Positions 6,124 through 45,900 of a stretch of DNA of 47,814 nt are shown here, one piece after another. Origin of the DNA: a virus; the IMG/VR virus record IMGVR_UViG_3300032116_000341, positions 1 through 47,814 of that record. One strand, 5' to 3'. Numbering within the stretch: position 1 is the first letter of the stretch; each line of letters starts with the position of its first letter. The notes below the pieces were generated by a model. It was not told the DNA's origin, ran no database searches, and was given only the letters and a program-made list of their open reading frames with translations. The position numbers and the translations under genes are program-made.

Positions 6124-7218
6124 ATGACAAAAGATGAAATACAATTAGAAGCATTAGCTGCAACTAATAACAAACAAAAATGTAGTGTAGTATTAGGTAC
6201 AGGAGTTGGTAAAACTTTGGTAGGCCTAACACATATAGATAAAAATTCTACAGAATTAATGAGAATACTTGTTGTTGCTCCAAAGAAATCTATTTTTCAG
6301 TCATGGAAAGATGATGCTGAGAAATTTAACATGGGGCATCTTCTACAGAGGATAACATTTACTACTTACTTAAGTCTTAACAAACATAGTCCTAATGATT
6401 ATGAGTTGGTTTATCTAGATGAAGCTCACAGTCTACTAGACAGTCACAGAAGTTTTCTTGAAAATTACAAGGGTAGAGTACTTGGTTTAACAGGTACTCC
6501 TCCTAAATATAAGAATTCTGAAAAGGGCCGTCTAGTAGCTGAGTTTTGTCCAGTAGTATTTAATTTTGGTGCAGATGATGCTATAGAAAATAAAATACTA
6601 AATGATTATCAAATCATTGTACATCAGCTTTATTTAAGCAAAAAGAATAATTATCTTGTTGAATTAAAAGGTAAGAAGTTTCCAACTTCTGAAGAAAAGA
6701 ATTATTCTTATTGGGGTACAAGAATAGACACAGGCTCGGGACCACAGCATATTTTGCGTGTAATGAGAATGAAAGCTATGATGGAGTATCCTACTAAAGA
6801 AAAGTATGCAAAGATTTTATTTGACTCTATAGATAGTAAGTGTATTCTATTTGCAAACACACAAGCACAGGCTGACAAGCTTTGCCCGCATAGTTATCAT
6901 AGTAATAATAATACTTCTGAAGAAAACCTTCAGATGTTTAAGGATGGTAAAATTACTAAGCTCTCAACTGTATTGCAGTTAAATGAGGGTGTAAACATAC
7001 CTAATCTTAAACAGGGTATTATTCTTCATGCTTATGGTAATGAAAGGAAAGCAAGTCAAAGAATTGGTAGATTACTCCGGTTAAATCCAGATGATAAAGC
7101 TATTGTACATATATTATGCTACATGAATACTGTAGATGAAAAATGGGTAAAAGAAGCTTTAGAAGGATTTGATCAGACTAAGATTGTATGGAAAGATTTT
7201 GGGGTTAACATTGATTAA
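6124..7218 (+). CDS. SF2 DNA helicase (DEAH type), 364 aa
   Basis: Predicted ATP-dependent superfamily 2 helicase of phage replication/recombination. The first RecA-like domain has Walker A GTGVGKT (25-31), Walker B DEAH (99-102) and motif III TGTP (123-126). The second domain ends with motif VI QRIGRLLR (312-319) carrying the arginine finger. At 364 aa it is a compact enzyme without extra domains. ATG at 6124 was chosen over an upstream in-frame TTG that would overlap the HNH gene. It follows the HNH gene by 5 nt, suggesting they act together on branched or recombination DNA. Its stop codon lies inside the terminator stem at 7201-7232. Confidence 0.9.
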   Translation: MTKDEIQLEALAATNNKQKCSVVLGTGVGKTLVGLTHIDKNSTELMRILVVAPKKSIFQSWKDDAEKFNMGHLLQRITFTTYLSLNKHSPNDYELVYLDEAHSLLDSHRSFLENYKGRVLGLTGTPPKYKNSEKGRLVAEFCPVVFNFGADDAIENKILNDYQIIVHQLYLSKKNNYLVELKGKKFPTSEEKNYSYWGTRIDTGSGPQHILRVMRMKAMMEYPTKEKYAKILFDSIDSKCILFANTQAQADKLCPHSYHSNNNTSEENLQMFKDGKITKLSTVLQLNEGVNIPNLKQGIILHAYGNERKASQRIGRLLRLNPDDKAIVHILCYMNTVDEKWVKEALEGFDQTKIVWKDFGVNID

Positions 7219-7232: not shown

Positions 7233-7247
7233 GTATATTGAGATAAT

Positions 7248-7502
7248 ATGGAAGATACAAAAACACATAAGTTAGTATTGTATAATGATGACTCAAATGA
7301 TTTTTTGTATGTTATGGCATGCCTCATAAGATATTGTGAGCATGAGCCTGAACAAGCTGAACAGTGTGCAATTATAACTCATAATAAGGGGAAATGCTCT
7401 GTAAAATCAGGTAATTATCTAGATATGTTAGAATTAAAAAATAATTTTGAAGAACTAGAATTAATTACAGAGATTGAGAGTTATGAAAGTTATATGCATT
7501 GA
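7248..7502 (+). CDS. clpS: ClpS-like N-degron adaptor, 84 aa
   Basis: This resembles ClpS, the adaptor that delivers proteins with destabilising N-terminal residues to the ClpAP protease. Visible family marks are the strand LVLYNDD (residues 9-15) holding the substrate-binding Asn13-Asp14-Asp15, the helix with Pro34-Glu-Gln-Ala-Glu, then T44-H45 followed by K47-G48-K49 and a VKSG turn. E. coli ClpS binds the N-degron through Asn34, Asp35, Asp36 and His66, corresponding here to N13-D15 and H45. The length is that of a core ClpS without a long N-terminal extension. It is the first gene after a terminator. A phage copy could redirect or block host ClpAP; the function is inferred. Confidence 0.8.
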   Translation: MEDTKTHKLVLYNDDSNDFLYVMACLIRYCEHEPEQAEQCAIITHNKGKCSVKSGNYLDMLELKNNFEELELITEIESYESYMH

Positions 7503-7746
7503 TGCCAGCAATAAACCAAAAAAAATATCATTTGATGAATGGCTAGAAGAAGGAGCAGTATATACTGTTATTGAAACTGCCAATATGGGTTTACAACCCG
7601 GAAGAATGGGCTTAAGATTAAAAGAAGTTACCCTTACTAAGAAATCATTTCCTTATGAGTATTATGATGCTAGTAGATTTCTACCAATAGAAGGACTAAT
7701 ACTTGAAGCTCAAAAAGAAAAAGAATTAGAATTAGATTTAATTTAA
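7483..7746 (+). CDS. Conserved phage hypothetical, 87 aa
   Basis: This is a small beta-rich protein of a type often seen in phages of Bacteroidota, with a start of the form Met-Lys-Val-Ile-Cys and a C-terminal Tyr-Glu-Tyr-Tyr segment. The function is unknown. ATG at 7483 overlaps the ClpS-like gene by 20 nt and replaces an in-frame TTG nine nt earlier. The tight overlap suggests coexpression with the ClpS-like gene. Confidence 0.7.
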   Translation: MKVICIDASNKPKKISFDEWLEEGAVYTVIETANMGLQPGRMGLRLKEVTLTKKSFPYEYYDASRFLPIEGLILEAQKEKELELDLI

Positions 7747-7747
7747 T

Positions 7748-8185
7748 ATGGAAGATTACACTAAAGAAGATGTAATAAATGCTCTTTCAAAAATTCCTAA
7801 AAAGTTAAGAAAAAGATCTTTAGTTGACCAAAGAAGTTATCTTATTGGATTACTTGCTTTTAGATTTATGATGACTGAGCATGGTATAGCAGCAGCAACT
7901 GGACATAATAGACATACAGTTAATCATAACAAAAAAATTGTATTGCAATATTACGATGATAAAGAGTATATGCAAAATGTATTTGTTCATTCAGTATGTT
8001 TTCCATTTGATTTTAGTGTAATTAAAAAGATACCTAGAACTCCTAAAAAAGTTAAAATAACAGTAGATCTAGATAGAAAGCTTTACACTAAGTTAAGAGC
8101 TGTGGGCTCCATTTTAGGCCATGAGAATACAAGGGATACAATTAAATTATTTATTGAAAACAGTTTAAAGTTATGGGAAAAATGA
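7748..8185 (+). CDS. HTH plus RHH-like DNA-binding protein, 145 aa
   Basis: Probably a transcriptional regulator. Residues about 30-66 read as a helix-turn-helix, with short helices around an Ala-Ala-Ala-Thr-Gly turn followed by His/Arg/Asn-rich recognition-helix residues. Residues about 101-142 have the pattern of a ribbon-helix-helix: a basic beta strand KVKITVDLD, then two amphipathic helices. It follows the preceding gene by 1 nt. In this compact early region it could control phage or host promoters. Assignment is by pattern only, and a structural role cannot be excluded. Confidence 0.5.
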   Translation: MEDYTKEDVINALSKIPKKLRKRSLVDQRSYLIGLLAFRFMMTEHGIAAATGHNRHTVNHNKKIVLQYYDDKEYMQNVFVHSVCFPFDFSVIKKIPRTPKKVKITVDLDRKLYTKLRAVGSILGHENTRDTIKLFIENSLKLWEK

Positions 8186-9160: not shown

Positions 9161-9628
9161 ATGACAAATTATAATGAAGTTAGTGGAGATCTTATTGATC
9201 TTGCTAAAAAGGGTGAATTTGATGTTGTAGCTCATGGCTGCAATTGCTTTTGTACTATGGGTGCAGGAATAGCACCTCAAATGGCTAATGCCTTTGGATG
9301 TGATGAATTTCCACTTGAAAATCAAAAATATTCAGGAGATAAAAATAAGCTTGGTAAGATAGATTATGAAACAATGCTTGTTAATAATAAACATCTTACT
9401 GTTGTTAATGCATATACACAATATGGATTTGGAGGACAACCATTTGATTATGATGCTTTTGAAAAGATTGTATCTGAAATGAATAAAGTTTTTAAAGGTA
9501 TGCATATTGGTTTACCTAAAATTGGAGCTGGATTAGCTGGAGGTAAATGGAATGTCATTAAAGAAATGATACAAGAAGGATTTACTGATTGTAAAGTAAC
9601 TGTAGTAAAATATAGACCAGTTAGATGA
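9161..9628 (+). CDS. Macro-domain (ADP-ribose-binding) protein, 155 aa
   Basis: Macro-domain fold, probably binding or hydrolysing ADP-ribose derivatives (Appr-1''-p phosphatase-like). Features are the N-terminal GDL strand-loop (9-11), the VVAHGCNCF segment (22-30) with Asn28 in the place of the usual Asn of macro hydrolases, the GAGIA loop (34-38), and a second glycine loop near the C-terminus (IGAGLAGG) that contacts the distal ribose and phosphate. It is a free-standing single domain. The next gene, a radical SAM enzyme, starts inside its stop codon, so the pair is probably a functional unit. A counter-defence role against NAD- or ADP-ribose-based immunity is possible but unproven. Confidence 0.85.
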   Translation: MTNYNEVSGDLIDLAKKGEFDVVAHGCNCFCTMGAGIAPQMANAFGCDEFPLENQKYSGDKNKLGKIDYETMLVNNKHLTVVNAYTQYGFGGQPFDYDAFEKIVSEMNKVFKGMHIGLPKIGAGLAGGKWNVIKEMIQEGFTDCKVTVVKYRPVR

Positions 9629-10491
9629 TAGTCACAAAAGTTACTAGAAAATCTATGACCATAAGACCAAGTGGGAGGAGTACTGATTTCATCAGTCCCT
9701 CCTTTGGTCATGGCTGTTTGTATAACTGTAGTTACTGTTATATGAAGAGACATAAACCGGAAGGATTATCTGTAGCTACAAATACTATGGATATCCTGAC
9801 AGAAATTAATTCACATGCTTATTTTACTGATGTAGAGAAACCTAATCAAACAGGGGAGTATGTAACTTATGATATCTCTTGTAATGAAGACTTTGCTCTT
9901 CATGCTAAATATCATGACTGGAAGACAATTTTTAAGTTCTTTAGAGATCATCCACTTGCTATGGGTTCATTTGCTACTAAGTATGTAAATAAAAACTTAC
10001 TAAGTTTTAATCCAGAAGGTAAGATTAGAATAAGATTTAGTATAATGCCTGAGAAGTGGAGAAAACAATTAGAACCTAATACTAGTCCACTTGATCAGAG
10101 ACTTCAAGCTATTCCAAAATTTATATATGCGGGTTATGATGTACACTTAAACTTTAGTCCAGTTATTGTTCATGACAATTGGCTGACTGAGTATGAGTTT
10201 TTGTTTGATATAATTAAGAAACATGCTCAGTATAATCTTTGGAATTTTGACCTAGTAAAAGCTGAAGTAATATTTCTTACTCATAATGAGGACAAGCATA
10301 AGTATAATCTACAGCATAATCTTCCGGGAGAAGATTTACTTTGGGTACCTAAAATACAAGAAGCTAAAATTTCTCAGTATGGTGGTAAGAATATAAGGTA
10401 TGAACATAACAGAAAAGCTGATTATATCAAACAGTTTGTTGAGTTACATGATAAATATATTCCTTGGAATACAATTAGATACATATTTTAG
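9625..10491 (+). CDS. Radical SAM protein, SplB-like, 288 aa
   Basis: Radical SAM enzyme resembling the spore photoproduct lyase (COG1533-like) branch. The cluster motif is Cys31-x3-Cys35-x2-Cys38 followed by Tyr and Met, within a FGHGCLYNCSYC segment. Later strands carry the SAM-barrel pattern (SFATKY, RIRFSIMP, HLNFSPVIV). The enzyme would use a 4Fe-4S cluster and S-adenosylmethionine to make a radical; the substrate is unknown. It overlaps the macro-domain gene by 4 nt (ATGA), so the two are likely translated together. Repair of photodamaged DNA or nucleotide modification are both possible. Confidence 0.85.
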   Translation: MIVTKVTRKSMTIRPSGRSTDFISPSFGHGCLYNCSYCYMKRHKPEGLSVATNTMDILTEINSHAYFTDVEKPNQTGEYVTYDISCNEDFALHAKYHDWKTIFKFFRDHPLAMGSFATKYVNKNLLSFNPEGKIRIRFSIMPEKWRKQLEPNTSPLDQRLQAIPKFIYAGYDVHLNFSPVIVHDNWLTEYEFLFDIIKKHAQYNLWNFDLVKAEVIFLTHNEDKHKYNLQHNLPGEDLLWVPKIQEAKISQYGGKNIRYEHNRKADYIKQFVELHDKYIPWNTIRYIF

Positions 10492-29312: not shown

Positions 29313-32300
29313 TTATTTTAATTTACCTGCACTTTCAAATCCTTCTAATGCCTTATCTACTTGACCTGTGTTACCATTAATACCAACACTCTTAAGTAAG
29401 TGACCTATAACTTTTGGTGACCCCTCTTGTTGCCAGAAGTATTCACCCTCTTTTCTACTATAGTATGCTTTATCATTAAATGTAATTAGTTGGAATACAT
29501 CTTCAAATATTTTAGCATATAAACTAATGGTATTTCCAAATGCAGATGTAGTTGTAGTAACCATTTTAATATAATCATCTGCTCCAAGGTTTACACCAGC
29601 AATTGTTGGTAGTGGAACAAATGCTGAAGTTTCAGCTTGTACACCTAATAATAATAAAAGCATATGATTTTGAATAAATCCCCATGTTTTAAAGTCATCA
29701 GTAAATAAAGCTCCTGATCTTGCTCTAAGTTTATCAAATCTTTTCTTATCATCTGGATCATAACCCCAAAGCATTGATGCAAGAAGAGCGGCAGTTATTA
29801 TAAATAATCCTTCAGAAAGAGTTCTCATCAAATCTCTTTTTTGATCAAGTGGCATATAAGCCCAATACTTACCTTTACTTTTAATAAGTTCTTTCATTCC
29901 AAGATATGCATTTACATAAAAGCCCATAGTAGTTTTACCGGTCATCCAATCATATCTTTTTTTCATTTTTGGTTTCCAGAACTTACCATCTTCTATTTCT
30001 ACTGCAGCTCCCCATCTGTTTGTAAGCATTGGTATAAACCACTTTCTCATGAATGTAAACATTCTATATGGTAAATACATATTACCTTCAGCTTGAGCAA
30101 ACTTATCATATGAACCATACAATCTGTGAGATACACCCTGAAATTTATTTCTAAACTGTTTAAATTTCTCAGATTTAGCAATTATAATTTCTTTACCTTC
30201 TTCAAATTCTATAGCACTAACAACTTTATTTCTTTGCTGAAGTTCTTCAACAGTAACACCATACATTTGAGCAATTTCTTCAAGTGTTTGACCTTTAACA
30301 TACTCATGATATACTGTTCTATTATACCATGCTGGATCAACACCTGGTTTTAATTCAGCTATACCAGTATCTTTATTAAGTTGCCATGCATCTTTATAGT
30401 TAATAGTGATAGTCTTACCATTAGAAAGTCTTTGCTCTACTTTTTCAGCATTTAAAAATGCACCAAAAAGTTGTAAAGCTGCTTCCATTTCAGCATTTTT
30501 TCTAATGTTGTACATCCACTCTCCATTCATAAGATCCTTTGACATGTTTCTAGAGACAGATCTTCCAAAGTCATCTTCAAATTTAAAGGCTGCATCAAAC
30601 ATTTCAATTATCTGAGATGATAATGCAGGAACACCTTTTGTATATACACTCTTAGCTACCCACTCTAACATAGCTGGAGTAGCCCATAGTTTACCTTTTC
30701 CTAAATCTTTTACAGTAATAAATCCACCACCAGCTGATTCAATAATATTTTGTACTATCTGACCATATCTGTTTTTTAAATCTGAAGGTAAGTTTACTGC
30801 TAGTGAAGCTCTTGATGATAGCTTTTGTAGTTTGCCAATAAATTTATCTAAGTAGACAGAGCTTCCCTCACCGCTATATTGTTTACCATAGTATTCTCTT
30901 TCAATAAGAGATCTTACTTGGCCGGCTCTATTATTAGTAGCACCCGGTTTTACAGTATGAGTAAGTTTACCTTTTATCCTATTTATAGTTTTACTATAAG
31001 TGTTAGGAGTCTTTGGTGCATTAGCTGGATCCTCTAATGTATCTAGTATAGAATTAACAAGAGGAAGAGTTTGTAATAATTGTGACTGTTGTTCAAGAGA
31101 TAGTAAATACTTAAACATTCCTCTAACAACATCTGGATCAGTATTATCTATATCTAGATTATATAATCCAGTTACCGGAATATATGAAACTTCTTCAGAA
31201 TTTAAATCAGTATTTACAAGTCTATACTCTTGAAGATTATTATCTCTTTCATAGTTGTGTTCTAATTCAACTTCATCTACAGACTTACCCCAAGCATCTC
31301 TTATTGACTGACCAATACCTTTTTTAATCTGAGAATATCTTTCACCTAATTTACCAGCTTGTAATCTAGATAGGTTATCTCTTAATACATAGCGTGGCAT
31401 ATCTAGATATAACTTAGACTTATTAGACTTATCTTCTTGAAATGAAAGATGAGCTTCTTTCATTACCTCAAGGAGTTGGAATCTTACACTATTTGGTTGA
31501 TCCTTAAGCCTCATGTAATCCTTGTTAATGTATCTATCATCTTTAGCAGAATTAGGATCATTTACATTAGTAAATAATCTTGGAAGATATTGACCTTTAT
31601 TGTCAATGTGTACACCAACTTGTAATTCTACTTCACCTGTCTGAGGATTGTAACCTGTTCTATATTTATCTTTTATTCTATAAATAGAGTGTCTAGCATT
31701 AGGTAAACCATTAAAGGTTTCTTCTTCTCCTGTTAGCTCATTAAGCAATACAGTTTTTTCATAGTACTCTGGATTCTTTGGAACAGACAAAGAATTGGCC
31801 ATAGTTCTTTCATACTTGACTTCAATTTTTCTAGTCTTTCTATTTTTAACCTTTCTAGAAACGTGATTAACTCTAAACCAATCTACTAGTTTCCCATCTT
31901 TTTCTAATAGGGCTTTCATTTCATCACTGTTGATGAAATTAGTTGCATCTTCAACATTAATTGGTGCAACATTTAATCTCTGCAAATGCTCATTTAATGC
32001 ATCAACATAATATTCAGTAGGTATCTTTTGAGTTAATGAAGATAAGTCAGCATAAATACTTTGCATAAGAGCCACTTCACCTACAGATAAACCAGTCTTA
32101 GCTTGTTTTTCCAACAATGTTCTATATCTTAACTTTTGTTCTGGTGTTAGTTTTGCTGGATCTTTTTTACTTATAGCAATATATAAATCAAGTTCTTCAG
32201 ACTCATCTCTAGAAAGTCCAGTTTTAGTATCAAATTTAGCTTTGTAATCAATAATTTTTTGATTAAGCTCTTTAATTGTTTTTAACTTATCTACACCTAA

Positions 32301-35300
32301 CTCTTCTGGAATAGGTTGACCCTGCTCATCTTTATAAGCATACATTAAGTTATAGATTTCACTATAGGCATTGCTGATATCAAAATCTTCTTCTATTACA
32401 GTATTAACTTTTGATTGTAAAGCTTTAAGTTTAGTAATCAAGTCTTTTCTAGAATTATAAAAGTCTTCAGTATAAGCAACTCTTAAATTTTGCTTTACCC
32501 ATTCTTTTTTAGCTTCTTCTATTTCTTCAGGAGTAGCTCCTTCTTGATCCTTTAAACTTAAAAATTCATTAAATGCAGTTTGTAAAGAGCCAGCTCTTGG
32601 GATAAACTCATAATAGTCACCGGTACTTTCTCTATGTTCAAGAAGTATTCTAGTAATAGTTAAGTCATAAATACCATTGATTGGATCATCTACTTTATCA
32701 CTACCATCAGCATACTTTAATGAATACAAATTTTTGTAATCTTGCCAAAGTGACTGAAGTGTAGAATATTTTTGAAATCTTTCTAGCTCATCTGTTAACT
32801 CATTTGATTCATTGTTATATGCATCAAGAGCCATTTTTCTTGCAAGCCATGCCATCTTTCCTATATCACCATACTTATCAAACACACTATCTTTTTGATA
32901 GACTTCTTGAATGTACTCATCATGCATATAGTCTCTTTTAAAAGCTCTATATTCATCAACAGCAGTTCTAATTTTTTCTTGATCTTCAGATGACCATGCC
33001 TCATCAATTTTATATTCAAGTAAATCCTGAACATATCTCCAACCATTTCCAAACTCATTCAAAAAAGTTAATATTTCTTTTTCAACTGGCTTTTTTGTTT
33101 TAGGATCTACATAAAGTATTTTATCCTTAAACATTAATAAGTCTACTAATTGCCTTGTTTTTAAAGTACTATAACCTATTTTTTCTAAAAGTGGTTGAAG
33201 CTTTTTTCTAAATTGATATGACTTTTCCAGGGCCCTGTTATTAGCTTCAGTTATCTGATCATTAATAAAAATAGCTAATCCACCTACTATAGGGTCATTA
33301 CTAGAAGTATAGCTCTCAAAGAATCTGTTAAACCAACTTACATCTTTTAATTTACCTGACAGACCATCAGTAATTGTATCTTGATTTAGCAAAAACTCTT
33401 TATAGTCATCAATAAATTTCTTAATGTATTTAGATTCAATTCCTTTCTTTTCATACTTTGCATACAACTCATCTAAATCTTGATCTGTAAATGATTGTTT
33501 GATAACACCATTGTATAATTCTTCAATCTCCGAAACAGATAGTTTATTAGTTAATGCATTTTTTAAATTATTTCCAAGTTCTTGCATTAGGAAATCATTC
33601 ATATACCCAGTGACTTCTACATAAAAGTTGACACTGTTTTCTTGATAGATATCTCTAATTTTTTTGTCTGCTCTGAGTAAATTATTCTTTGTCTCATTAA
33701 TGAGATCTGTTAGTTCATTTGGTTGAGTAACATCAAAATCATCTTGCTCAATTAAGAATTCATCAAATGTGTTAAACATATCATTCCATGATCTAATTGA
33801 GCTTCTATATAAAAAGAGAAGAGCTACAGCATCCCTAGAGTTAAACTCTTTTGTTTTCTGCATTCTATTTAGATCACTAAATATATTCTGAGAAATATTA
33901 TTGACTACAGCAACACTATTAATAAAACTTCTAGCTCTGTTAGTAAGATCTTGAGTTCTTGCTCTTTCAGCTTCAACTGTATTTTTGATTATCTCATCAA
34001 CAGATAGGTCTTCATAGTTAGTTATTGTTTGAAAGCCAGCTAAACTTCTTTTTATTCTTGGCAATAGTTCTTTAGTACCTTTTACAAATAATGCTTCTTT
34101 AAGCATTTTCTGATACAAAGGTGATCTAGTTTTAAAGTTTATTGCCTTTTCATAAATTAATTGATTAGTAGCAAACAAGTCATTTATAGATTCTTGAATT
34201 TTATCAGCCTTAACATCTTTTACAAGTCTGTTAGCCATGTCTTTAATTTCCCTAGCAAAAGCTACTATGTCTTCATTTTTTATGGCTTCAACATTATACT
34301 CAAAAGTATCTGTCAATAACATTTCTGCTAACTTATCTATCTTTGTATTTACATTAATGTCAGCTACCTTTACTTTAGAGCCAAAAATCTTTTTAAGTAA
34401 GTCTTTTAATACACTTAATAATTTACCTATAAATGACTCAAATCCTTCTGATTCAATTTGATTAGTTACCTGATTAGCTGCTTTTCTTTGTAAAGCATAT
34501 GCTAAAGTTTCCTCCATAAAGAGGGGATTAAGTTGCCTTTCCCCATTTGCATCTATAGTATACTCAGGTAATTCTGGATAGTTTTTTATAACATGATCTC
34601 TTATTATCTGACCTTCAGTAGTTGCCATCAAACTATTATAGAGATTGGTAAATAGAGTTTTGTTTTCTCTATAGATTGCTCTCAATAGTGGGTGGGATAA
34701 TTCATGGAGTACTGTATCAAAATTTACATTGTCTCCTACTATGTATACAGCTCCTCCAAAAAAGAATGCTGGTTCTCCATTATATTTTTTCTTTCTTGAT
34801 TCAAGAATTTGTCTAGCTTCTTGCTCAGTTACATACATATACTGAACACCTAATGATTCAGCAATTTTTTGTCCTAATGCATCTGCAGCTTCTTTTGCTC
34901 TCTCATTATTTATTTTTCCTTCATCAACTGTTAAATCACTTTTGTCAGGCATATTTGTAAAATGATCATCTGCAAAAGTAAAATATCTAAAACCTCTATT
35001 AGTAAATTTATATTTGTCTTCAAAGAAAGGTTGGAAGTATATAAGATCTGTTAAGTCTTTACCTCTACCCATGTTTATTTTTGCTTCAAAGATTTGTTTC
35101 CAGTCTTTATAGTACTGATCAAATATTTCTGGATAATTTCCTTCTTGGGTTCTTAAAAAGAAATCAAGTACATATCTCTTAGGTCTAGTAACCATATTGG
35201 GAACAATTTTTCCCCCATAACTTGCTAATCCATCTTGTACAGTTTCTGTTTCAGTAGGATGTTCAACATAACCCGTAATTGTAATTGACTCTCCCTTCTT

Positions 35301-36935
35301 ATGATCTTTACCAATAAAGGCAGTATCAAAATTCCAACTAGGAAATTGTTCTTTTAAATTTTTATACCAAGATTGTGCTTCAAGATATGGTAAAACTTCT
35401 TTTTTAAAAGTTTCAGAATTTTTTCTGCTCCTAGCTTTACTTAATGGTAAGCCTCTTTCTTCAATCCATTTAAGGAACTGAGCTGCATTTTTCTCACTGT
35501 TAAATTGCTCAAGACTAATAACACCATCAATATCATGCAGATCTTCAGATATAGCTCTTACAACTCTACCATACTTTCTTAATACTAATGAGCCACTAAG
35601 AAAGTATTCAAATGGAGAATTAAATAATTTTTCTACAATCCCTTTAGCAAATGGGTCTCTATTTAAACTTTGATTATAATACTTTTGCTCAAACTCTTCT
35701 CCCTTGCTTGAAAAGAACTTACCATTTGAATCCTCATAGTAACTTCTAATAAACTTCTCATAGTTCTTTTTATAAACATCATCAACAATATCTAAGACAG
35801 TGTCTCTTAGTTCAGCTTCCTTGTATATAGTTATAGCTTTATTGTCCTTAATATTTGCTTGCCACCAGTTCCATAGTTTATTGAACATTCTAATAATCCA
35901 ATTTTCAGCATATTTATCTTTGTAGCCTAAACTTTCAAAGTATTCTTTGCTTATATCAGGATTTTTTCTTTTACTACCATCATATCCATTTTCAACACCA
36001 ACAACTAACATACCGGCAATAAACTCAATAATTACTTGCCTGTGTGCATATGGGTTAAATCTAGCTGGGTCATATTTGTAGATTTCTCTAACTGTTTCTG
36101 CAGCCATATCTCTCTCACCATATGGTGTAACTTCTTCCGCAGTTTGTTCATCTTCTACTTCAAGCCTTCTTGTATTGTATTTATTGTACAATTCATCATA
36201 TCTGCTCCAGCTATTTATACCTTTCCAAAGCTCTAAACCAAGTTTAGATTTTTTACCAAGAAATTGAAATATAACATTTGCAGACTGCATAGCTAATGTC
36301 TTGTCTGATACATTTCTTTTAAGTGCCATATACTTTTGAAGTATATCAAATGCAGCTAAAGGATCCTCTTTTGTTCTTCTTACACCATTCTCATCAATCC
36401 AAGTTCTTCTATCTGAACTTATTATTTCATCAAGATCCTGATCAATTTTAATGTTTAATCCTTCCATGAAAGAAATAAGACTAGTTCTTAGTCTATTACT
36501 AAACTCCCTATTTAAAGATGAATTATTAAAGTTATCCCTCATAAACATAGGGTTTAAACTTTCATCATCCTCAAAGTTTGATACAGGTTCTTTTAGAATA
36601 TCAAAGTCTTTAGTCTCTTCTTTTATTTCTTGTTGGATTCTAACATCATCAAGTATTTGGAATAACTCATCATTTGGTTGAGCATAAAGTGTAACATTTA
36701 TGTCATCCCTATAGAATCTAGATGAATATGGATATCTTGTTTGAACCTCATATGGTTCATTGAAGAAAGAATCATTTTCTTCAAGTTTTAGATTTGGATA
36801 CTTGAGCTGTATAAATCTGGTAAATTCTTCATTAAATTTATTAAATTCAATTGGATCCAATATATCATTGAATTCACCAAGTATACCTCTCTTTTTTAAA
36901 TCTTCTAAAACTGTTGACCTAGATTCACAAAACAT
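29313..36935 (-). CDS. Giant virion cargo-type protein, 2540 aa
   Basis: A very long crAss-like protein, probably packaged or injected with the DNA. Visible parts are: a nucleotidyltransferase-like core with Gly448-Ser449, Asp468-Ile-Asp470 and third acidic Asp594-type strand (Asp591), followed by a Gly-Arg-Gly-Lys-Asp-Leu segment; a zincin-like HELSH at 744-748; long helical and coiled-coil regions; a LysM-like module near 2210-2255; and a hydrophobic stretch near 2375-2395. ATG at 36935 shares one base with the stop of the RNA polymerase gene (TAATG), so translation is likely coupled; a TTG nine nt upstream is a less likely start. The rest is not recognisable by eye. Confidence 0.7.
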   Translation of the reverse strand: MFCESRSTVLEDLKKRGILGEFNDILDPIEFNKFNEEFTRFIQLKYPNLKLEENDSFFNEPYEVQTRYPYSSRFYRDDINVTLYAQPNDELFQILDDVRIQQEIKEETKDFDILKEPVSNFEDDESLNPMFMRDNFNNSSLNREFSNRLRTSLISFMEGLNIKIDQDLDEIISSDRRTWIDENGVRRTKEDPLAAFDILQKYMALKRNVSDKTLAMQSANVIFQFLGKKSKLGLELWKGINSWSRYDELYNKYNTRRLEVEDEQTAEEVTPYGERDMAAETVREIYKYDPARFNPYAHRQVIIEFIAGMLVVGVENGYDGSKRKNPDISKEYFESLGYKDKYAENWIIRMFNKLWNWWQANIKDNKAITIYKEAELRDTVLDIVDDVYKKNYEKFIRSYYEDSNGKFFSSKGEEFEQKYYNQSLNRDPFAKGIVEKLFNSPFEYFLSGSLVLRKYGRVVRAISEDLHDIDGVISLEQFNSEKNAAQFLKWIEERGLPLSKARSRKNSETFKKEVLPYLEAQSWYKNLKEQFPSWNFDTAFIGKDHKKGESITITGYVEHPTETETVQDGLASYGGKIVPNMVTRPKRYVLDFFLRTQEGNYPEIFDQYYKDWKQIFEAKINMGRGKDLTDLIYFQPFFEDKYKFTNRGFRYFTFADDHFTNMPDKSDLTVDEGKINNERAKEAADALGQKIAESLGVQYMYVTEQEARQILESRKKKYNGEPAFFFGGAVYIVGDNVNFDTVLHELSHPLLRAIYRENKTLFTNLYNSLMATTEGQIIRDHVIKNYPELPEYTIDANGERQLNPLFMEETLAYALQRKAANQVTNQIESEGFESFIGKLLSVLKDLLKKIFGSKVKVADINVNTKIDKLAEMLLTDTFEYNVEAIKNEDIVAFAREIKDMANRLVKDVKADKIQESINDLFATNQLIYEKAINFKTRSPLYQKMLKEALFVKGTKELLPRIKRSLAGFQTITNYEDLSVDEIIKNTVEAERARTQDLTNRARSFINSVAVVNNISQNIFSDLNRMQKTKEFNSRDAVALLFLYRSSIRSWNDMFNTFDEFLIEQDDFDVTQPNELTDLINETKNNLLRADKKIRDIYQENSVNFYVEVTGYMNDFLMQELGNNLKNALTNKLSVSEIEELYNGVIKQSFTDQDLDELYAKYEKKGIESKYIKKFIDDYKEFLLNQDTITDGLSGKLKDVSWFNRFFESYTSSNDPIVGGLAIFINDQITEANNRALEKSYQFRKKLQPLLEKIGYSTLKTRQLVDLLMFKDKILYVDPKTKKPVEKEILTFLNEFGNGWRYVQDLLEYKIDEAWSSEDQEKIRTAVDEYRAFKRDYMHDEYIQEVYQKDSVFDKYGDIGKMAWLARKMALDAYNNESNELTDELERFQKYSTLQSLWQDYKNLYSLKYADGSDKVDDPINGIYDLTITRILLEHRESTGDYYEFIPRAGSLQTAFNEFLSLKDQEGATPEEIEEAKKEWVKQNLRVAYTEDFYNSRKDLITKLKALQSKVNTVIEEDFDISNAYSEIYNLMYAYKDEQGQPIPEELGVDKLKTIKELNQKIIDYKAKFDTKTGLSRDESEELDLYIAISKKDPAKLTPEQKLRYRTLLEKQAKTGLSVGEVALMQSIYADLSSLTQKIPTEYYVDALNEHLQRLNVAPINVEDATNFINSDEMKALLEKDGKLVDWFRVNHVSRKVKNRKTRKIEVKYERTMANSLSVPKNPEYYEKTVLLNELTGEEETFNGLPNARHSIYRIKDKYRTGYNPQTGEVELQVGVHIDNKGQYLPRLFTNVNDPNSAKDDRYINKDYMRLKDQPNSVRFQLLEVMKEAHLSFQEDKSNKSKLYLDMPRYVLRDNLSRLQAGKLGERYSQIKKGIGQSIRDAWGKSVDEVELEHNYERDNNLQEYRLVNTDLNSEEVSYIPVTGLYNLDIDNTDPDVVRGMFKYLLSLEQQSQLLQTLPLVNSILDTLEDPANAPKTPNTYSKTINRIKGKLTHTVKPGATNNRAGQVRSLIEREYYGKQYSGEGSSVYLDKFIGKLQKLSSRASLAVNLPSDLKNRYGQIVQNIIESAGGGFITVKDLGKGKLWATPAMLEWVAKSVYTKGVPALSSQIIEMFDAAFKFEDDFGRSVSRNMSKDLMNGEWMYNIRKNAEMEAALQLFGAFLNAEKVEQRLSNGKTITINYKDAWQLNKDTGIAELKPGVDPAWYNRTVYHEYVKGQTLEEIAQMYGVTVEELQQRNKVVSAIEFEEGKEIIIAKSEKFKQFRNKFQGVSHRLYGSYDKFAQAEGNMYLPYRMFTFMRKWFIPMLTNRWGAAVEIEDGKFWKPKMKKRYDWMTGKTTMGFYVNAYLGMKELIKSKGKYWAYMPLDQKRDLMRTLSEGLFIITAALLASMLWGYDPDDKKRFDKLRARSGALFTDDFKTWGFIQNHMLLLLLGVQAETSAFVPLPTIAGVNLGADDYIKMVTTTTSAFGNTISLYAKIFEDVFQLITFNDKAYYSRKEGEYFWQQEGSPKVIGHLLKSVGINGNTGQVDKALEGFESAGKLK

Positions 36936-39900
36936 TACATACAATTTAATGGGTTATTCTCTCCTTCAAATTTAGCTAATATTTCTGCATCTGTTACAGG
37001 TTGATATTTGGCTACCTCTGAACTTACTTCTTTTGCAAACTCCGATCCTGGGTTAAGATATTGGAATTCTTCAAAAAGTCTTCTACTTAAATATACAAAT
37101 AATTCTTTTGGCATCAAAGCAGGATCTCCATATCCATTAATAGAAAATGCAACTTTACCTCCTTTTTCTATTACTTGATTGATTTCTGCAATAGCAAGTT
37201 CTATATCAGCTATCCTATTATCATAGTACTTTTTATCTAGAGTAGAGAAAGCATCGGATACCTTATCTAAACCAGTTACTATACCTACAGAAGAACTATT
37301 AGCTATTTTTTTAAGTAGCACTTGCCCTTTAAGCTTTCTTTTATTAAACTCTTCAGGTGTCATTTTTTCATATGCTTCTTTTTGTGCTAAGCTTAATTGA
37401 TAGATAAATGTAATGTCTTGATTATTATCAACTATATACTGGTATGCTTTTTCACTTCCAGAAAGATCATTGTATACAAATACATTAGCACTAATAGTTG
37501 GTATAAGATTTTTTCTTTCTACCAGCCTTTCTGCATTTTCTATGTCTTCAGCTGTTATTGTTTCTGAATCTGGAATTTTTGAAAGTACATACTGTGTATC
37601 TATAGATTTCTGAACATCTAGTCCTGTCAAATAATTTTTAAATCTATACTTGTCTCTATTTGTTTTACTGTTAACTTGTTCAAACTTATTTTTAAAATCA
37701 ACAAGCATTTTAAGTTTTACAGGAGATTCTAAGAACTTAGCAGTCTCATCATTCATTACATCAATAAACTTATCAAAGTCAGTTAAGCTTAGGAAGTTGT
37801 ATTTACTTTTATTAGTACCTGATTGCAGCATTGCAATGTATGTAATCTTTGCAAAGAAGTCACTAATTCTATCATTCTCATCTTTATCTTCAACCTTTTT
37901 TACAGCCCTATTTGAAAGCTCTTCAAAATTTCTTGAATATAAATTAGACTTAAATGATGTCATGTCTTTATCATCTATATAAAGATTAAACATTGTCTTA
38001 GATTGATTAGTATCTATTACTATTCTAGATAGTACAGGATAATTATCAAAAAGCTCAGTTCTGTATTGAGTCTTAAGCCTTTCTAATCTAACAGCATATG
38101 CATTTTCTTTATCATTAAATAAATGATATGGATTCAATGTGTTATCTAAAGCTCTACTTGCTATAATTTTTTCATAAGTGTATCTTCTATTTTCTGTTTC
38201 CACACCTCTTACACTAGTCTTTTTTACATTTTCAAGTTCTTTTTTAAACTCTTGTGTTTTTACAACTTCATCAAAAGGCATAACATGTCTTAGATACTCT
38301 CTTTCTACAACAAATCTGATATATTCTTCTTTGTTAGAAGCTACATTACTTCCAAAATGACCTGGCTCAAGAGCATATAATCCTCTATCCTCATAACTAT
38401 TTTTAGCTTCACTTCCTCTTAGATAAGACTTGTCAAAGAATTCTTTTTCAATTTGAACTCTATCAACCACCATAGTTGGCCCACCAGCTGTATCTACAAC
38501 CCGTGCACCAAACTTAAGTCCTGCAGCAGGTGTAATTTTAATATTGTCACTTAGGGCATAAGAGCTATATTCTTTTCCAAGACTATATTTTCTTAGTGTA
38601 TTTTGGAACAAATAACTTAAAATATCATTTCTAAATACAACTGGGAATATATCACGATAGTTATATCCAAATGCAGCTTTTAAAATTTCTGCATTTTTAA
38701 AATCAGAAACATAAGATTGTATATAATCTTGTATGTCTTCATCATATCTAAACTTGAATAATGGTTTTGCTAAACCTTTAACAAGTTTTGAATTAAAGAA
38801 AGAACTAATAATTGAATCATTAATCATTCCTAACCTTAGATCTTGATCTATTTTAGTATTTAGTGCTAAAGCCTCAATATTAGATTCAGCTTGAATAGCT
38901 TGTCCTACATCAGTGTTAAGAGCTGTATCAGGATTAGAAGCCATCTTTAATGCTGTGATTCCTTCAATTTGTTTTTCTATAGTAAGATAATGCAAGAACA
39001 TTGTTCTTGATAAGTCACTACTAGCTTTTTCAGGATTATTTTTACTTTCTGTGATTAGATTAAGCATTTCTTCTTTAGTGAAATGTTTGTTATCTTCACT
39101 TCTGTTTTTAAAATATTCATCCATCATATTCTTACCAACAGTATATCTTACTTGGTCATCTGCAAGAAAGTTCTTAAAGTTTTTAGATATAACATTGCTG
39201 GCTGCTTTGAAAGATACTCCTAAATATCCTGGGTCTCTTCTTAATGGTTCTGCAAATGTACTTTGTGCAAGTCTCTTTTCTTTTACATAGTCCCTAACAA
39301 GTGGTTGTGATACAAAGTAAACTGCTTCTTCTACTGGTACTCCTGTCTTAAGTAAGTAAAGTAGTATAGGTGCAACTTCATAGTTACCCTGCACAAAGAA
39401 TATCCAAGCATCTTTTTCAACATCCACCCAACCGTTTATTAATTGGGATATAACATCAGCTATTTTATTTACACCATCAACATCATACTGATTAGACAAT
39501 GATATAACATCTTGTCCATTCTTTTTTGTTGTGTGATGTCTTAAACCTAAGAATGATATTCTATTCATTTCTTCATCACTGTGTTTATACACAGGAGGCA
39601 TTGTTGCTCCTAATGAATTAAATATAACATTGAATGTATTTTCAATAGCACCAAGTCCTAATGTCTTCTTACCAACAACATTTGATTCATGTTTGTATAA
39701 GTTATAACCTACTTCAAAGATTCTTGTTGGACTAATAACTTCTTTTTGCTTACCACTTTTATCTGGAGCTGAAAGATTTGGTACAAGGTTTCCATCTTTA
39801 TCTTTAGTCATCATATTTTGTAATGGACTATAATCCATTACTGATTGTGCTAATCTATCTGCTATAGGTTTAACAAGATAAGTTCCGTTAGGAGTTGTAA

Positions 39901-42900
39901 GAGATACAAAATTTTCTGGTAATTCAAGAATACTTCTTATGTCATTGATCAGTGCATTCTCAAGACCAGCCTTTTGCATAGCATACATCTGCTGCTTAGT
40001 CATATCATATTTTGCTGGATCTTTGAGTGCATTATAGAATTCCTCTGCATTTTCAAACATTGTCTGTTTAACATTGCCATCAGAATCAATGTTATTCATG
40101 AATATAGATAACTTATCAATATCAAAGTCAGCTCCTGATTTAGCAACTATTTCTGCTGGAGGAATGATAATATTACCAGCTTCTGCTGGAAGGAAGTGAT
40201 ATACTTCCATAAATTCCATAGAGTTCAAACCCTGTACTGGAATCCTAACTCCAACCATAGTTATTGCTTTTCTGTTATTTTTATCATTTGCATCTAACCA
40301 TTCATCATCTTTGATAGCTTCATTAAGTCTATCAATAGTTCCTATTGGTTCACCTTTGTATTCTAGATTTAATAAACTCTCATAATCACCTTGAAGAGAT
40401 ATGGCAACTTTCATTGCTGTAGTTTTACCATCAGCTCCTCTATGATATGTAGGTAAAAAGTTAGAGCCCATATATTTTTTAACTGCAGTTTCCCGTGCAG
40501 CAGGACTCATCTTATCTAAATCAATTGGCAACTCAAATAAACCATCATAGAAAGCAGATGATTTCTGTACTAATGGTTCTCCCTTAACTTTTTGTTTAAT
40601 TATTCTTTTATTGATCAATGACAATAAAAGTTTTTCAATCTTCACAGCCTCTGGGTGTAGAGATAAGTCAAATCTTAAATCTCCCTCATCAGTTACATCA
40701 ATGATGTCTATTAGATTGTCACTATATACATCATCTCTTGTAAGAGTATCCCGAATCATTTTTGCAAGCTTTGCAATACTGTCTTTATTTACTGGAATAA
40801 ATTCTCCACTTTCAGTTTCTTCAAACCCTAGTTCATCAACTAATTCATTTTTAAGTAACTCAGTATACTCAGATACCCTGTTTACATAGTTTTCAATTAG
40901 CTTAGTATGTTTTTTTATGGTTATTTGACCATTTTCATACATTCCTTCTAATACTAACTTTCTTAACTGAGTTGAGAATATTGATTTTTGTTTATACTTT
41001 GAGTTTACTTCAGTTTGATTTTTAAGGTATTCTGCAAAAATTACATTCTTGGTTAATGTAACTGAGGTATCTATATTTCCATTTTTGTCCACAATGTTAT
41101 CACCTGAACCAAAATGTCCTACCTTTTCACCAGATTCCATTAATACATAATCAATACCTTGTTTCATCATCATGTCATGAATCTGACCCAATCTAGTATT
41201 GGCAGTATGCACTGTAGGAATCAATGGAGCTAATGAAAATTTATGAAAAGATGTTAATGGTAATCCAGAAACTTTAATGTTACCATAGTACTGTAATTTA
41301 TATGGTGGAAAGTATTCTCTAATTTCAGAAGCTGTAATTGTTTCATTATTTACAATTCTTTTATATAAGTTTTCCTGTTGAGTAGTCCAGTTACCTTCTA
41401 GATTTTTTAACATCTTATATGCTTCAAATCCTATCCAACCTTGACCATCAGCAATTTTCATATCACTGTAGTCTTTAAGAACTATTGTTGCAAGTTCTTT
41501 TGCAAGTCTTTCTGCTTCAGCTTTAGATTTACCAGCTTTTAAATACCTTTGTGTATAATCTTTAACGTGAGCATCATAGTATTCTGACTTATATTTAGAT
41601 TCCCCTATCTCTTCTTCTTTTATAATAGCTGTGTTAAGTGTACCATCATATGGTCTAAATTCATAATTATATTTTTCAGCATAAAGTCTTTCATACATAG
41701 GGCTGTTGATATACATCCTTGCTCTATAATCTGCACGGAATCCTCTACCACCAGAACCTAAACCAGCATTTCTCTTATGGAACTCTTCTTTGTCATGGTT
41801 ATACTGTACTGTATCTCCATATGCCAAAATGGTTGTTTCAAAGTTATGTATCCAATAGTTATAGGTGTATGCTTTAACTAGCATTTTATCTACTTGATCT
41901 TTACTAAGTTCTTCAGAAGATACCATATCATATAAACTTTGGTCTATATATCTAGCATCTTCTAATCTACTGTAGTTTTGTTGTGTTTGAGCATTAAAAT
42001 ATTGAATGACATCATTTTTAATTTTTCTTCTTAATTCAGGATTCTCATTAACAATATCTTTAAGATTAAAATCTTCAGGATTAAAATAACCAGTCTCTAA
42101 TGCATCTTCCATAGTTTTATCTATCAATGCATATAGATCACCTTGTACTTCAGCAGATAAGACATCATCAAATGCTGTAAATGCTTCACCGGCTTTTACA
42201 GTTTGACCATTATCTTTTCTTACTACATTTCTATTATAGGCTGAAAATTTTCCAAAGTATTCTTTATTTGATTTGAATCTGTAAATCCTACCAGCTTCTG
42301 CTGCAATGTAACCAAGTAACACATTAAATGCTTCTGACTCTCCTAGATTATTATTTGCTGTAGTATTACTTGGACTAAATGCCATGATATCTACATAAAG
42401 ATTGGTGAGTTTTTTGCTTGAATAAGTATTTACTTTCTTAGCTCTTAAGTTCATTGCTGTTTGCTTAGAAGCATGTCTCATGAACTCCACAACACCTGAT
42501 TGTAGCATTGTATGCATTTCCTGTAAGAACTTACTTGTTACATCTGTATTTGCAGTTGATGTTCCAGTAGTTTCATTATTCTCTCTATCAATAATTTGAG
42601 TACCTCCAATATTTTCTAATAACAATTCAGCACCTGGAAACTTTTCACCATAGTTTGGTGACATTGGATTTAAATCAAAAATAGAATTTAATACTACAGA
42701 AAATGCTGAAGAAGGATTATTCTCTTCAGACAACCATCTCATGTGTTGGAATCTACCATTTGGATCAGCTTCTTTCATAGTAAGCTGTTGCCAAGAAGAA
42801 GCTTTATTTATTGAAGTTACAATTCTTGTTACTGTATTATCTAAGAACTGTTCCCATACTCTATTCTTTTCAGGAGTTAATACACTGTAGTTTGAGTATC

Positions 42901-45900
42901 CATCTGAAAATCTATTTTGTAATTGTGCAAGTGTTGTAATTTTAGATCTAACATCTCTTGCTTTTCCTCCAGCAGCATCAACTATTGCTTTTGGCATTTC
43001 ATTCATCAAATAATATAGAGGCTGTCTTTTAAAATCCTCTGCTGCAGCCATTAGTCCAATATCATTGGACTTACTAGCTAAGTATACTAATCTTACATTA
43101 TCATATATAAAATCAATATTGTATCTAGAAGCAAATGGTTTTTCTTTATTTCTAACAACATTTCTAATATCAGCACTTGTCATATCTAATTGGATACCAA
43201 GAGCTGCAAGAAACTCACCTGCTTTGTTAGGATTAAGCTTTTTGTCTAATGTAAATTCTTTAATAACCTCATTAACATTTAAGTAATTGTTTCCACCATC
43301 CTTTTCAATAAATCTGTTGGTAACAGAATCAGCAACATTAAAGTTTGTTGTCCAATCATTAATGATTCTATAAATATCAAAGTTAGCTGCAGCAAGTCTA
43401 GCTTCATAGATTGATTTCTCTGGTATTCTTTTACCATCAATTTGTTTAGCTTTCTCTATAACAGTTTTATTTATATTTAATTGAATAAATGGAATAACCG
43501 GCTTCTTAAGATCTTGCCAGAAATTAGTTTCTGATTTAAACTCTGTGTTATTATTATAAGCTAAAGGTCCAAATTGATATGGGTTTGGTAATATTTCAAG
43601 AACTTGAATAAACTCAGGATAATTTTCAATTGAGTTTTTCATTCTATCATACATATCAAGAAAATCCATAGAGCCCTGTAAAGTTCTTGCTAATCTAGCC
43701 CACATTACATCTACTGGTTCTAGCATTGGAAGACCAAAGTCATCTGTTTTTACAGAGTAGGTTTTAACTCCATTTTCATTTTCTTCAATTAAATAATCCC
43801 CATTCTCATCTCTATTAAGTTGGTAGATTCCAGAAAGCATCATCATTGTATCATCAGTTGCTAACTGTTTAGCAGAAATAGAATTACCTTCTTCTGTTTT
43901 AAATAAAGCTACTGTAGCATCTTCTGTATCATCATTATAGGCATCTTTCAAAATATTAAATCTTGATCTTTGCATGTGAAATGCAACTACACCTTTATCT
44001 GTTTTTTTACTTAATGCCTCATCAACAACACCATAATTTTCCACTGCTTTCATCAAAAGATCAAGCTTTGCCATCTCTTTTTGTTCAGCTACAAAATCAG
44101 GATTTTTATTTGTGGGGTCTGCATTTGCAATAGCAATACTTTGTGCAACTTCTATTTGATTATCAAGTAAAACATTTAACTGTTTTTCTATATTACTATA
44201 AAGTTTTTGTCTATTAGTTATATCACTTAAAAGTCTTACTGCTCCACTTGTTGTACCGTATGTAGTATTATATTTATAGAAGGTTCTAGCCATTAATGAA
44301 TCCATAAGATCCACAATCTTATTAGACTGAACATCAGTAATTTCAGTAAAGTCTTTGCCAGTACTTGTGATTGGTTGTATTGTTTTCTTTGCACTATTCA
44401 ATCTTTGAAAACCAGGCATTAAGTTATGCTCAGCATTTTCAGTATCAACTGTAAAGTTTCCGGTATAAAGATTATTATAATATTCTTTTACCATTGGTAT
44501 ATCATACAATCTTGTTACATCTCTCTTAGTTGTTTTACCAAAGAAGAAATCAATAATCTTTTTGATTTTATTAAATATGGTCTGAATAATACCAGATTGT
44601 TTTTTACCATTTACAGCATAGTCAATAAAGTCTTCAGCTAAATCTTCTTCAATTTCTATAAATTCTTTATTGGCCCATTTATCAAATGTTCTAATATGGT
44701 TATATAATGCTGTCTTTTCTTCTATTGTTAGAACCAACTGAGAGAATGCATGCCATGCTTCGTGATATAAAGTAATTGGTTGGGCATCTCCATATAGTTC
44801 TATTCTTGCTGCAAATCCTTCTTCTCTAAGTTTATTTGCTGCATCAGATAAAAGAGATCCTGCAGAAAGAAATGTACCATATGCTGAAGAGTTAAATACA
44901 AGAGCCAGTCTTTCAACATCTACAACACCTTTTAAAGGGGACTTATCAAACCATGCATTTACATCTTCCCAAGCTCTAGCACTTCCATAGAGTTGATTCA
45001 TAACAGAAGCAGCTCTTTTATTTCTATCCATACCTGGAAGATCAGGTATTAAATCAGTACCATTTAGTAAATCATCTATAGAAATTTTATTAATTTTTCT
45101 ATCTTGAACTTTTTGTTGCTCTACTGTTTTAGCTGGTATAGTTGGTTTAGCAGGGACAACAGTTGATGTATCCACTGGTTGAGTAACTTTATTTGCAGCT
45201 TTCTTATAAGTTTTAGTTGACTTGCTAAGAAATCTAGATAGAAAATCTGCTTTAGTATTCTTAGTTGATTTTGAACCTGAAGCTAAATATGGAGCTTGAG
45301 TTCTTAATGCATAACCTGTAAATGCTCTAATCTTAACTGGTATACCTAATTTTTTTGCTGCTTTGATTGAAGCTTCAGCAATACCGGTTTGACCATTACT
45401 AATGATCTTAGATATTGGATAATCCTTTACAACCTCTTTTAAGATATTATAAATATACTTATCTATTTCTGCTTGAGTGTAACCATCTTTAGCAAGCTGT
45501 GCAATATCATTACCAACAATATTTACAACATTACCTTTCATTTTAGAAAGGTTACTTACCATTAAATCAATAGCATTTTGTGGAGGAATTAAATTTTTTG
45601 GAGCTTCACTTTTAGAACCAATTTTTAATCCATACCATTTGTTTACTGCACCAGCTCTTTGTTGTACTAATTTTTCATCAGGAGTAGTAAACTTTGTTCC
45701 TAATCCAAATACTACATCTGCTTCATTTATATTTGCTACAAGAGTTTTATCATTTGGAAGAGTAGATTGTTTAGTTTCTATTGTAAACTTTACTCCTTCT
45801 TCTTCCTCTTCTTCAACTTCTTCTTTTTTAACTTCATCTTGAGTACCATTATCTACATCATCAGAAGTTAAATTACTTTCTTTTGGTATACCTATATCAA

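Follow-up and report, generated by a model that had tools for sequence, protein, structure and literature searches.

The question raised by this locus is what a phage-encoded ClpS does with the N-degron pathway of its host. The stretch analyzed here (the window) comprises 47,814 nucleotides of IMG/VR record IMGVR_UViG_3300032116_000341 and carries a short ClpS-like ORF between a helicase and two small ORFs. The reading favored here over that of a delivering adaptor, at a probability of roughly 0.4, is that the product would serve as an N-degron binder uncoupled from the host Clp unfoldase, acting as a shield or decoy. The genes on which the argument draws are the following:

6124–7218, plus strand: SF2 helicase (phrog_16), the conserved upstream neighbor of clpS (PHROG match and synteny)
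7248–7502, plus strand: clpS, 84 aa with an ATG start, ClpS fold, N-terminal extension absent (Pfam and fold match)
7483–7746, plus strand: w13, an 87-aa partner ORF whose first 20 nt lie within the 3′ end of clpS
7748–8185, plus strand: w14, a 145-aa ORF, the next neighbor after w13
36935–47752, minus strand: 3605-aa protein matching crAss-like RNA polymerase proteins (3000 residues used as query)

The initial annotation recognized a ClpS core in the 84-aa ORF, and both profile and structure comparisons with ClpS bear this out. The Pfam profile search matched the ORF to PF02617 (ClpS) at E = 2.9e-14 and 53 bits, against a cut-off of 23, and this was the single PF02617 match in the record; the same cut-off was passed in 19 of 19 long records, window included. 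The PHROG match was to phrog_27368 (E = 8e-4). Single-sequence search of the window protein gave weak matches to E. coli ClpS chains, six rows at E = 0.015–0.026, and an engineered repeat protein, matched by chance, ranked above them (E = 0.012). The AlphaFold2 model (pLDDT 93.2, pTM 0.82) has the b-a-a-b-a-b order of secondary structure found in ClpS, and its top structural match, with Z 15.6, was Mycobacterium smegmatis ClpS (9ayo_B), on which 76 residues superpose at an rmsd of 0.9 Å; the E. coli ClpS in complex with ClpA (1r6o) scored Z 13.2, and the fold kinds ranked after ClpS were ribosomal L7/L12 (Z 9.9) and Ubr1 (Z 9.8). All 38 Foldseek matches at E ≤ 0.001 were ClpS chains or the Plasmodium ClpS-like 4o2x. 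Purifying selection acts on clpS in the phage clade (median dN/dS 0.31, with no pair at or above 1, in 514 pairs from 52 distinct sequences with 0.1 < dS < 1). The ORF is a real gene encoding ClpS, a chance ORF being ruled out by the Pfam E-value, the Foldseek matches, and the selection. The C-terminal tail of about six residues, absent from nearly all hosts, overlaps the start of w13 and is for that reason not claimed as a functional tag.

The phage is probably a deep crAss-like branch, as judged from sequence matches in the window and its relatives, in keeping with the earlier assignment to the crAss-like phages. A search with 3000 residues of the 3605-aa protein gave low-identity matches to crAss-like phage proteins from 80 records (∼21–26% to crAss-like RNA polymerase subunits), including the annotated subunit of Cellulophaga phage phi14:2. 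The terminase and capsid protein of phi14:2 were matched in eight and nine, respectively, of 15 related long records, which reach 122,794 bases, at 22–27% identity; neither had a match in the window, which is a fragment, or in a near-identical 86-kb record (G001). Adjoining the RNA polymerase-like giant, positions 29313–36944 (minus strand) encode a protein of 2543 aa, in which residues 2217–2243 match LysM.

Related loci came from a ClpS query, which found 43 viral loci, and from a profile scan of IMG/VR, in which 459 related stretches were confirmed among 510 and 80 were kept. The helicase lies just upstream of clpS in 97 of 101 viral loci and w13 downstream in 99, while w14 was matched in 71. 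Relatives hold clpS in the corresponding position, the arrangement for which the initial annotation had proposed a search. Since phage genes flank clpS in 97–99 of the 101 loci, host contamination was ruled out as the source of the window gene. A scan anchored on the helicase confirmed 259 loci, and clpS stood next to the helicase in 74 of the 79 with room among the best 80 of these 259. The other five (L300, L301, L312, L314, and L364) lack w13 as well and have a w14-like ORF after the helicase; they form a natural comparison set. No family was matched by w13 at E ≤ 1 in Pfam or PHROG profile searches, and its model gave no Foldseek match at E ≤ 0.001, with weak SH3-like ones only. Further along the plus strand, the protein encoded at 9161–9628 matches phrog_335 (phosphatase; E = 8e-47); it resembles a macro domain, and as such would take off ADP-ribose and could work against a host ADP-ribosylation defense. 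The 288-aa product of positions 9625–10491 (plus strand) matches phrog_13321 (E = 1e-6) and contains the stretch CLYNCSYCYM, which by eye resembles radical SAM proteins; it was matched in 52 of the 101 related loci at a median identity of 82%.

The N-degron pocket was located by alignment with E. coli ClpS:

7284–7292, plus strand: Asn13-Asp14-Asp15, pocket residues equivalent to E. coli N34, D35, and D36 (alignment columns)
7380–7382, plus strand: His45, pocket residue equivalent to E. coli H66 (alignment column)

Over residues 5–50 the two proteins align at a constant offset of 21, and the counterparts of N34, D35, and H66, which hold the amino terminus of the bound protein, are all in the window protein. 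The match of these four residues to the E. coli pocket, pointed out in the initial annotation, thus stands for the window; across the clade only N13 and D14 are invariant (60 of 60 distinct sequences), D15 being retained in 40 and H45 in 49, with Asp in 10 and Asn in one, against 78 of 78 hosts with the His66 equivalent. The loss of H45 (11/60) and of D15 (20/60) could mean a weaker pocket. Asp replaces the pocket His in L014, L024, L028, L029, L031, L034, L036, L037, L038, and L039, several of which also have Asn for the third Asp, and these variants possibly have altered specificity.

Conservation elsewhere on the protein raises the possibility, which we consider improbable though worth weighing, that the ClpS fold has been put to a new use, with a clade-specific surface site for a new partner, perhaps w13 or the helicase. 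H7, Y21, and A24 are present in 60 of 60 clade sequences and variable in hosts, and the candidate site also takes in T/S6, a hydrophobic residue 61, and an acidic residue 62. The tight synteny of clpS with the helicase and w13 fits such a partnership, as does the absence of w13 from the five loci without clpS, but the joint loss of the two neighbors can be explained by one deletion, and the invariance of N13 and D14 is what would be expected if the amino-terminus pocket were still in use.

The N terminus differs from that of cellular ClpS, and its start is bounded in the window by one upstream feature:

7239–7241, plus strand: in-frame TGA, three codons 5′ of the clpS ATG (read in the sequence, with the upstream frame translated)

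With this stop codon in place the window protein cannot begin further upstream, which excludes a wrong start codon masking an extension; 12 residues stand ahead of the pocket Asn. Of 102 viral loci, among them the window as a single locus and L075, L088, L097, and L099, 100 have the nearest ATG at a distance of precisely 12 residues from the pocket Asn. The two exceptions are L044 and L098, the latter through a chance Met in the core in addition to an ATG at 12. No ATG occurs farther upstream in 82 of the 102; the other 20, L044 included, have a further in-frame ATG, 18 at 21–31 residues and two at 41–56, and these loci, unlike the window, could encode a longer ClpS. The helicase stop and the clpS ATG are separated by 4–37 nt in 97 of 97 loci, and the mean identity of the translated sequences rises from 0.20 over the 16 codons 5′ of the ATG to 0.69 over the 16 that follow it; an in-frame stop falls within those 16 upstream codons in 37 of 63 distinct loci and in none of the other 26. 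Among 75 of 80 host loci with a closed frame and an ATG, the furthest ATG lies at least 24 residues before the Asn (median 28) and the nearest at least 23 residues before it in 68, a nearer ATG leaving the start ambiguous in seven. In the 71 other viral ClpS loci the furthest ATG is likewise at least 23 residues before the Asn, with a nearer ATG making the start ambiguous in nine, including L231 and L232. The extension that enters the unfoldase channel is absent from the window ClpS. Truncated E. coli ClpS binds substrate yet does not deliver it. In E. coli the extension reaches into the channel of ClpA, and degradation assisted by ClpS is inhibited when it is blocked (PMC9663308); its removal ends the in vivo degradation of ClpS itself by ClpAP (as stated in part of PMC12974527).

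In a phylogenetic tree of the ClpS cores, a single clade (99/99) lying among Bacteroidota ClpS took in 59 phage rows but not L044; L042, which is incomplete at its 3′ end, L108, and identical cores were left out, and L116, whose frame continues into another protein, was trimmed to 94–95 residues for alignments and trees. A host-profile scan for viral ClpS confirmed at least 523, and the 80 kept comprised eight extension-less proteins, 71 others, and one without the ClpS motif (L248). In a wider tree, which omitted every second host, every second extension-less row, L042, L108, L204, L248, short cores, and identical cores, the extension-less ClpS formed one clade (100/99), and loss of the extension was a single change in 100% of 200 bootstrap trees. 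This clade was nested in a moderately supported group (96/77) of 59 rows, most of them viral; support one node further out was weak (91/18), and the placement of L216 and L218 as its sister pair was not firm (80/37). The same helicase lies upstream of the other viral ClpS in 16 of 71 loci, at no more than 500 nt from the ClpS match in 11. The likeliest history suggested by these trees and gene neighborhoods is that the extension was lost once while the gene itself stayed in place. Extension-bearing ClpS also occur in viral records of 345, 348, and 313 kb (L211, L212, and L217), the last with a second, nearer ATG. The loss of the extension, and of some pocket residues in part of the clade, is what an acquired host gene drifting as a neutral passenger under decay would show; this is highly improbable in view of the purifying selection, the presence of clpS in nearly all of the helicase-anchored loci with room, and the grouping of its varied members in one well-supported clade.

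The surface that would contact the unfoldase appears to have diverged as well:

7416–7454, plus strand: predicted helix 3 (residues 57–69), the Clp-docking helix (AlphaFold2 model and alignment)

The numbering step from M. smegmatis ClpS to E. coli positions E79 and E82 is one that we take to hold. The E. coli ClpS core binds the ClpA N-domain with contacts through E79, E82, and K84 (described in part of PMC12493166). Window residues L58, L61, and L63 face E79, E82, and K84 in an ungapped register, near which MAFFT, applied to all rows but identical ones, set a two-residue gap and where hosts vary too; this register is favored because the structural match to 9ayo_B is gap-free. L58 and L61 thus occupy positions that are frequently charged in hosts, and the host Pro of this helix is replaced by E62. 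In the same ungapped register, a hydrophobic residue takes the place of E79 in 55 of the 60 clade sequences, compared with two of 54 among the other viral ClpS and 14 of 78 among hosts, and that of E82 in 60 of 60 versus 17 of 54 and 13 of 78, while the helix-3 Pro of 65 of the 78 hosts is Glu or Asp in 58 of the 60 (alignments for residue counts left out L042, L108, L150, L203, L204, L248, and identical rows). As far as these alignments indicate, the Clp-docking helix is changed in the phage clade, its charged positions having become hydrophobic. Host ClpS, however, vary at E79 and E82 and mostly lack Lys84, so that the group as a whole has no fixed docking face, which counts against reading the phage protein as an uncoupled binder.

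A pathway on which such a protein could act exists in the presumed host phylum, since Bacteroidota have ClpS (116 of 118), Leu/Phe transferase (nine of 10 genomes), and ClpP (nine of 10). Clp_N matches were found in all 10 genomes, although these fit ClpB too, and the ClpA cut-off (TIGR02639) was reached by none of the 10, all of which have long lower-scoring matches; the partner in Bacteroidota is therefore probably ClpC-like, and the argument from the ClpA-bound extension is one by analogy. In Bacteroides ihuae, a control genome, neither ClpS nor Leu/Phe transferase was matched, in contrast to most of the Bacteroidota sampled, and gut Bacteroides may have lost the N-degron pathway. A phage-encoded Clp machine was rejected, as ClpP, the Clp N-domain, and Leu/Phe transferase were each found in 0 of 19 phage records, some of which may be fragments.

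These observations bear on whether the phage protein delivers substrates. That it is a working adaptor, docking on host ClpC or ClpA and feeding selected proteins to the host protease, is the strongest of the competing explanations, if still an unlikely one: the phage protein belongs to the ClpS family and shares its pocket, its presumed hosts own large Clp ATPases and ClpP, a proposal of this kind by Iyer et al. is in print for jumbo-phage ClpS (in part of PMC7824862), and, with no ClpA over the cut-off in the 10 host genomes, delivery free of the extension is conceivable. Yet the phage clade has lost the extension although other viral ClpS retain it, and its docking helix appears changed. 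The uncoupled binder is favored over this adaptor, although a host ClpC-like partner may not need the extension. With the extension absent and the docking face apparently changed, the phage ClpS should bind and hold proteins and itself escape the protease. Its pocket would still bind proteins by a destabilizing N-terminal residue, and proteins so bound would be shielded, or host ClpS would be competed against; the host N-degron pathway might then be damped in infection, protecting phage proteins or host proteins that the phage needs. Of the roles first suggested, blocking or shielding through the pocket therefore fits better, and redirected proteolysis less well, because the delivery extension is missing. 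A stripped ClpS kept under selection in a phage lineage would indicate that the N-degron pathway matters in infection, and the phage-clade protein, as a natural loss-of-delivery form, could be used to trap substrates.

Phage ClpS as such is already known. The jumbo-phage proteins and the adaptor idea have been published (in parts of PMC7824862 and PMC6102473) and the proteins are annotated in deposited records, contrary to the initial remark that no well-described phage ClpS system was known. No paper linking ClpS with crAss-like phages was found in the open-licence literature among the matches listed, and a phrase search there for phage or viral ClpS gave one unrelated paper; the clpS discussed in PMC5082946 is a host gene, and PMC12419801 names a ClpS-L7/L12 domain in a different setting. 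A search with the window protein through 50,697 deposited phage records gave matches at E ≤ 0.1 in only three genomes, all of huge phages. Two Acinetobacter contigs were among the 22 phage records matched by an E. coli ClpS query; one of the two, the "phage" contig H40, has argC and clpA beside clpS and resembles host DNA. Among 12 deposited phage records inspected, the three huge phages, Phosso, PA5oct, and Atu_ph07 have 25–29 residues before the pocket Asn position, and the N-terminal part is far longer in Kaldavass and GAP32.

The jumbo-phage ClpS (Atu_ph07 gp708, AMM43882.1, PA5oct, and Phosso) are likewise phage-encoded and, in the published passages, proposed to steer host Clp, but Phosso, PA5oct, and Atu_ph07 have 25–26 residues before the pocket Asn position, as opposed to 12 in the window clade, Atu_ph07 has His at that position, and the window-clade core, unlike theirs, is of Bacteroidota type. 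The ClpS-like AUS02627.1 of Vibrio phage 2.275 (L194, 292–648), found by the E. coli query, also has 12 residues before the pocket Asn but a longer C terminus than the window ClpS; in this jumbo phage the extension was possibly lost independently. Leptospira ClpS1 has Asp for the pocket His, as does a subset of the phage clade, although it is cellular and has the extension (according to part of PMC12493166). The extension-bearing viral ClpS (L209, L216, L218, and others) share the Bacteroidota type with the window clade but keep the extension and have more polar docking positions. Host Bacteroidota ClpS are the closest cellular kin (39–53% identity to the window protein across 22 aligned host proteins) and conserve the pocket pair, yet differ in having the extension, the helix-3 Pro (65/78), and His66 (78/78). 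Set beside these systems, the extension-less form with an apparently altered docking helix, in one crAss-like clade, looks new, and through it phage ClpS, until now a side note on jumbo phages, becomes a regular constituent of the genomes of a large crAss-like group.
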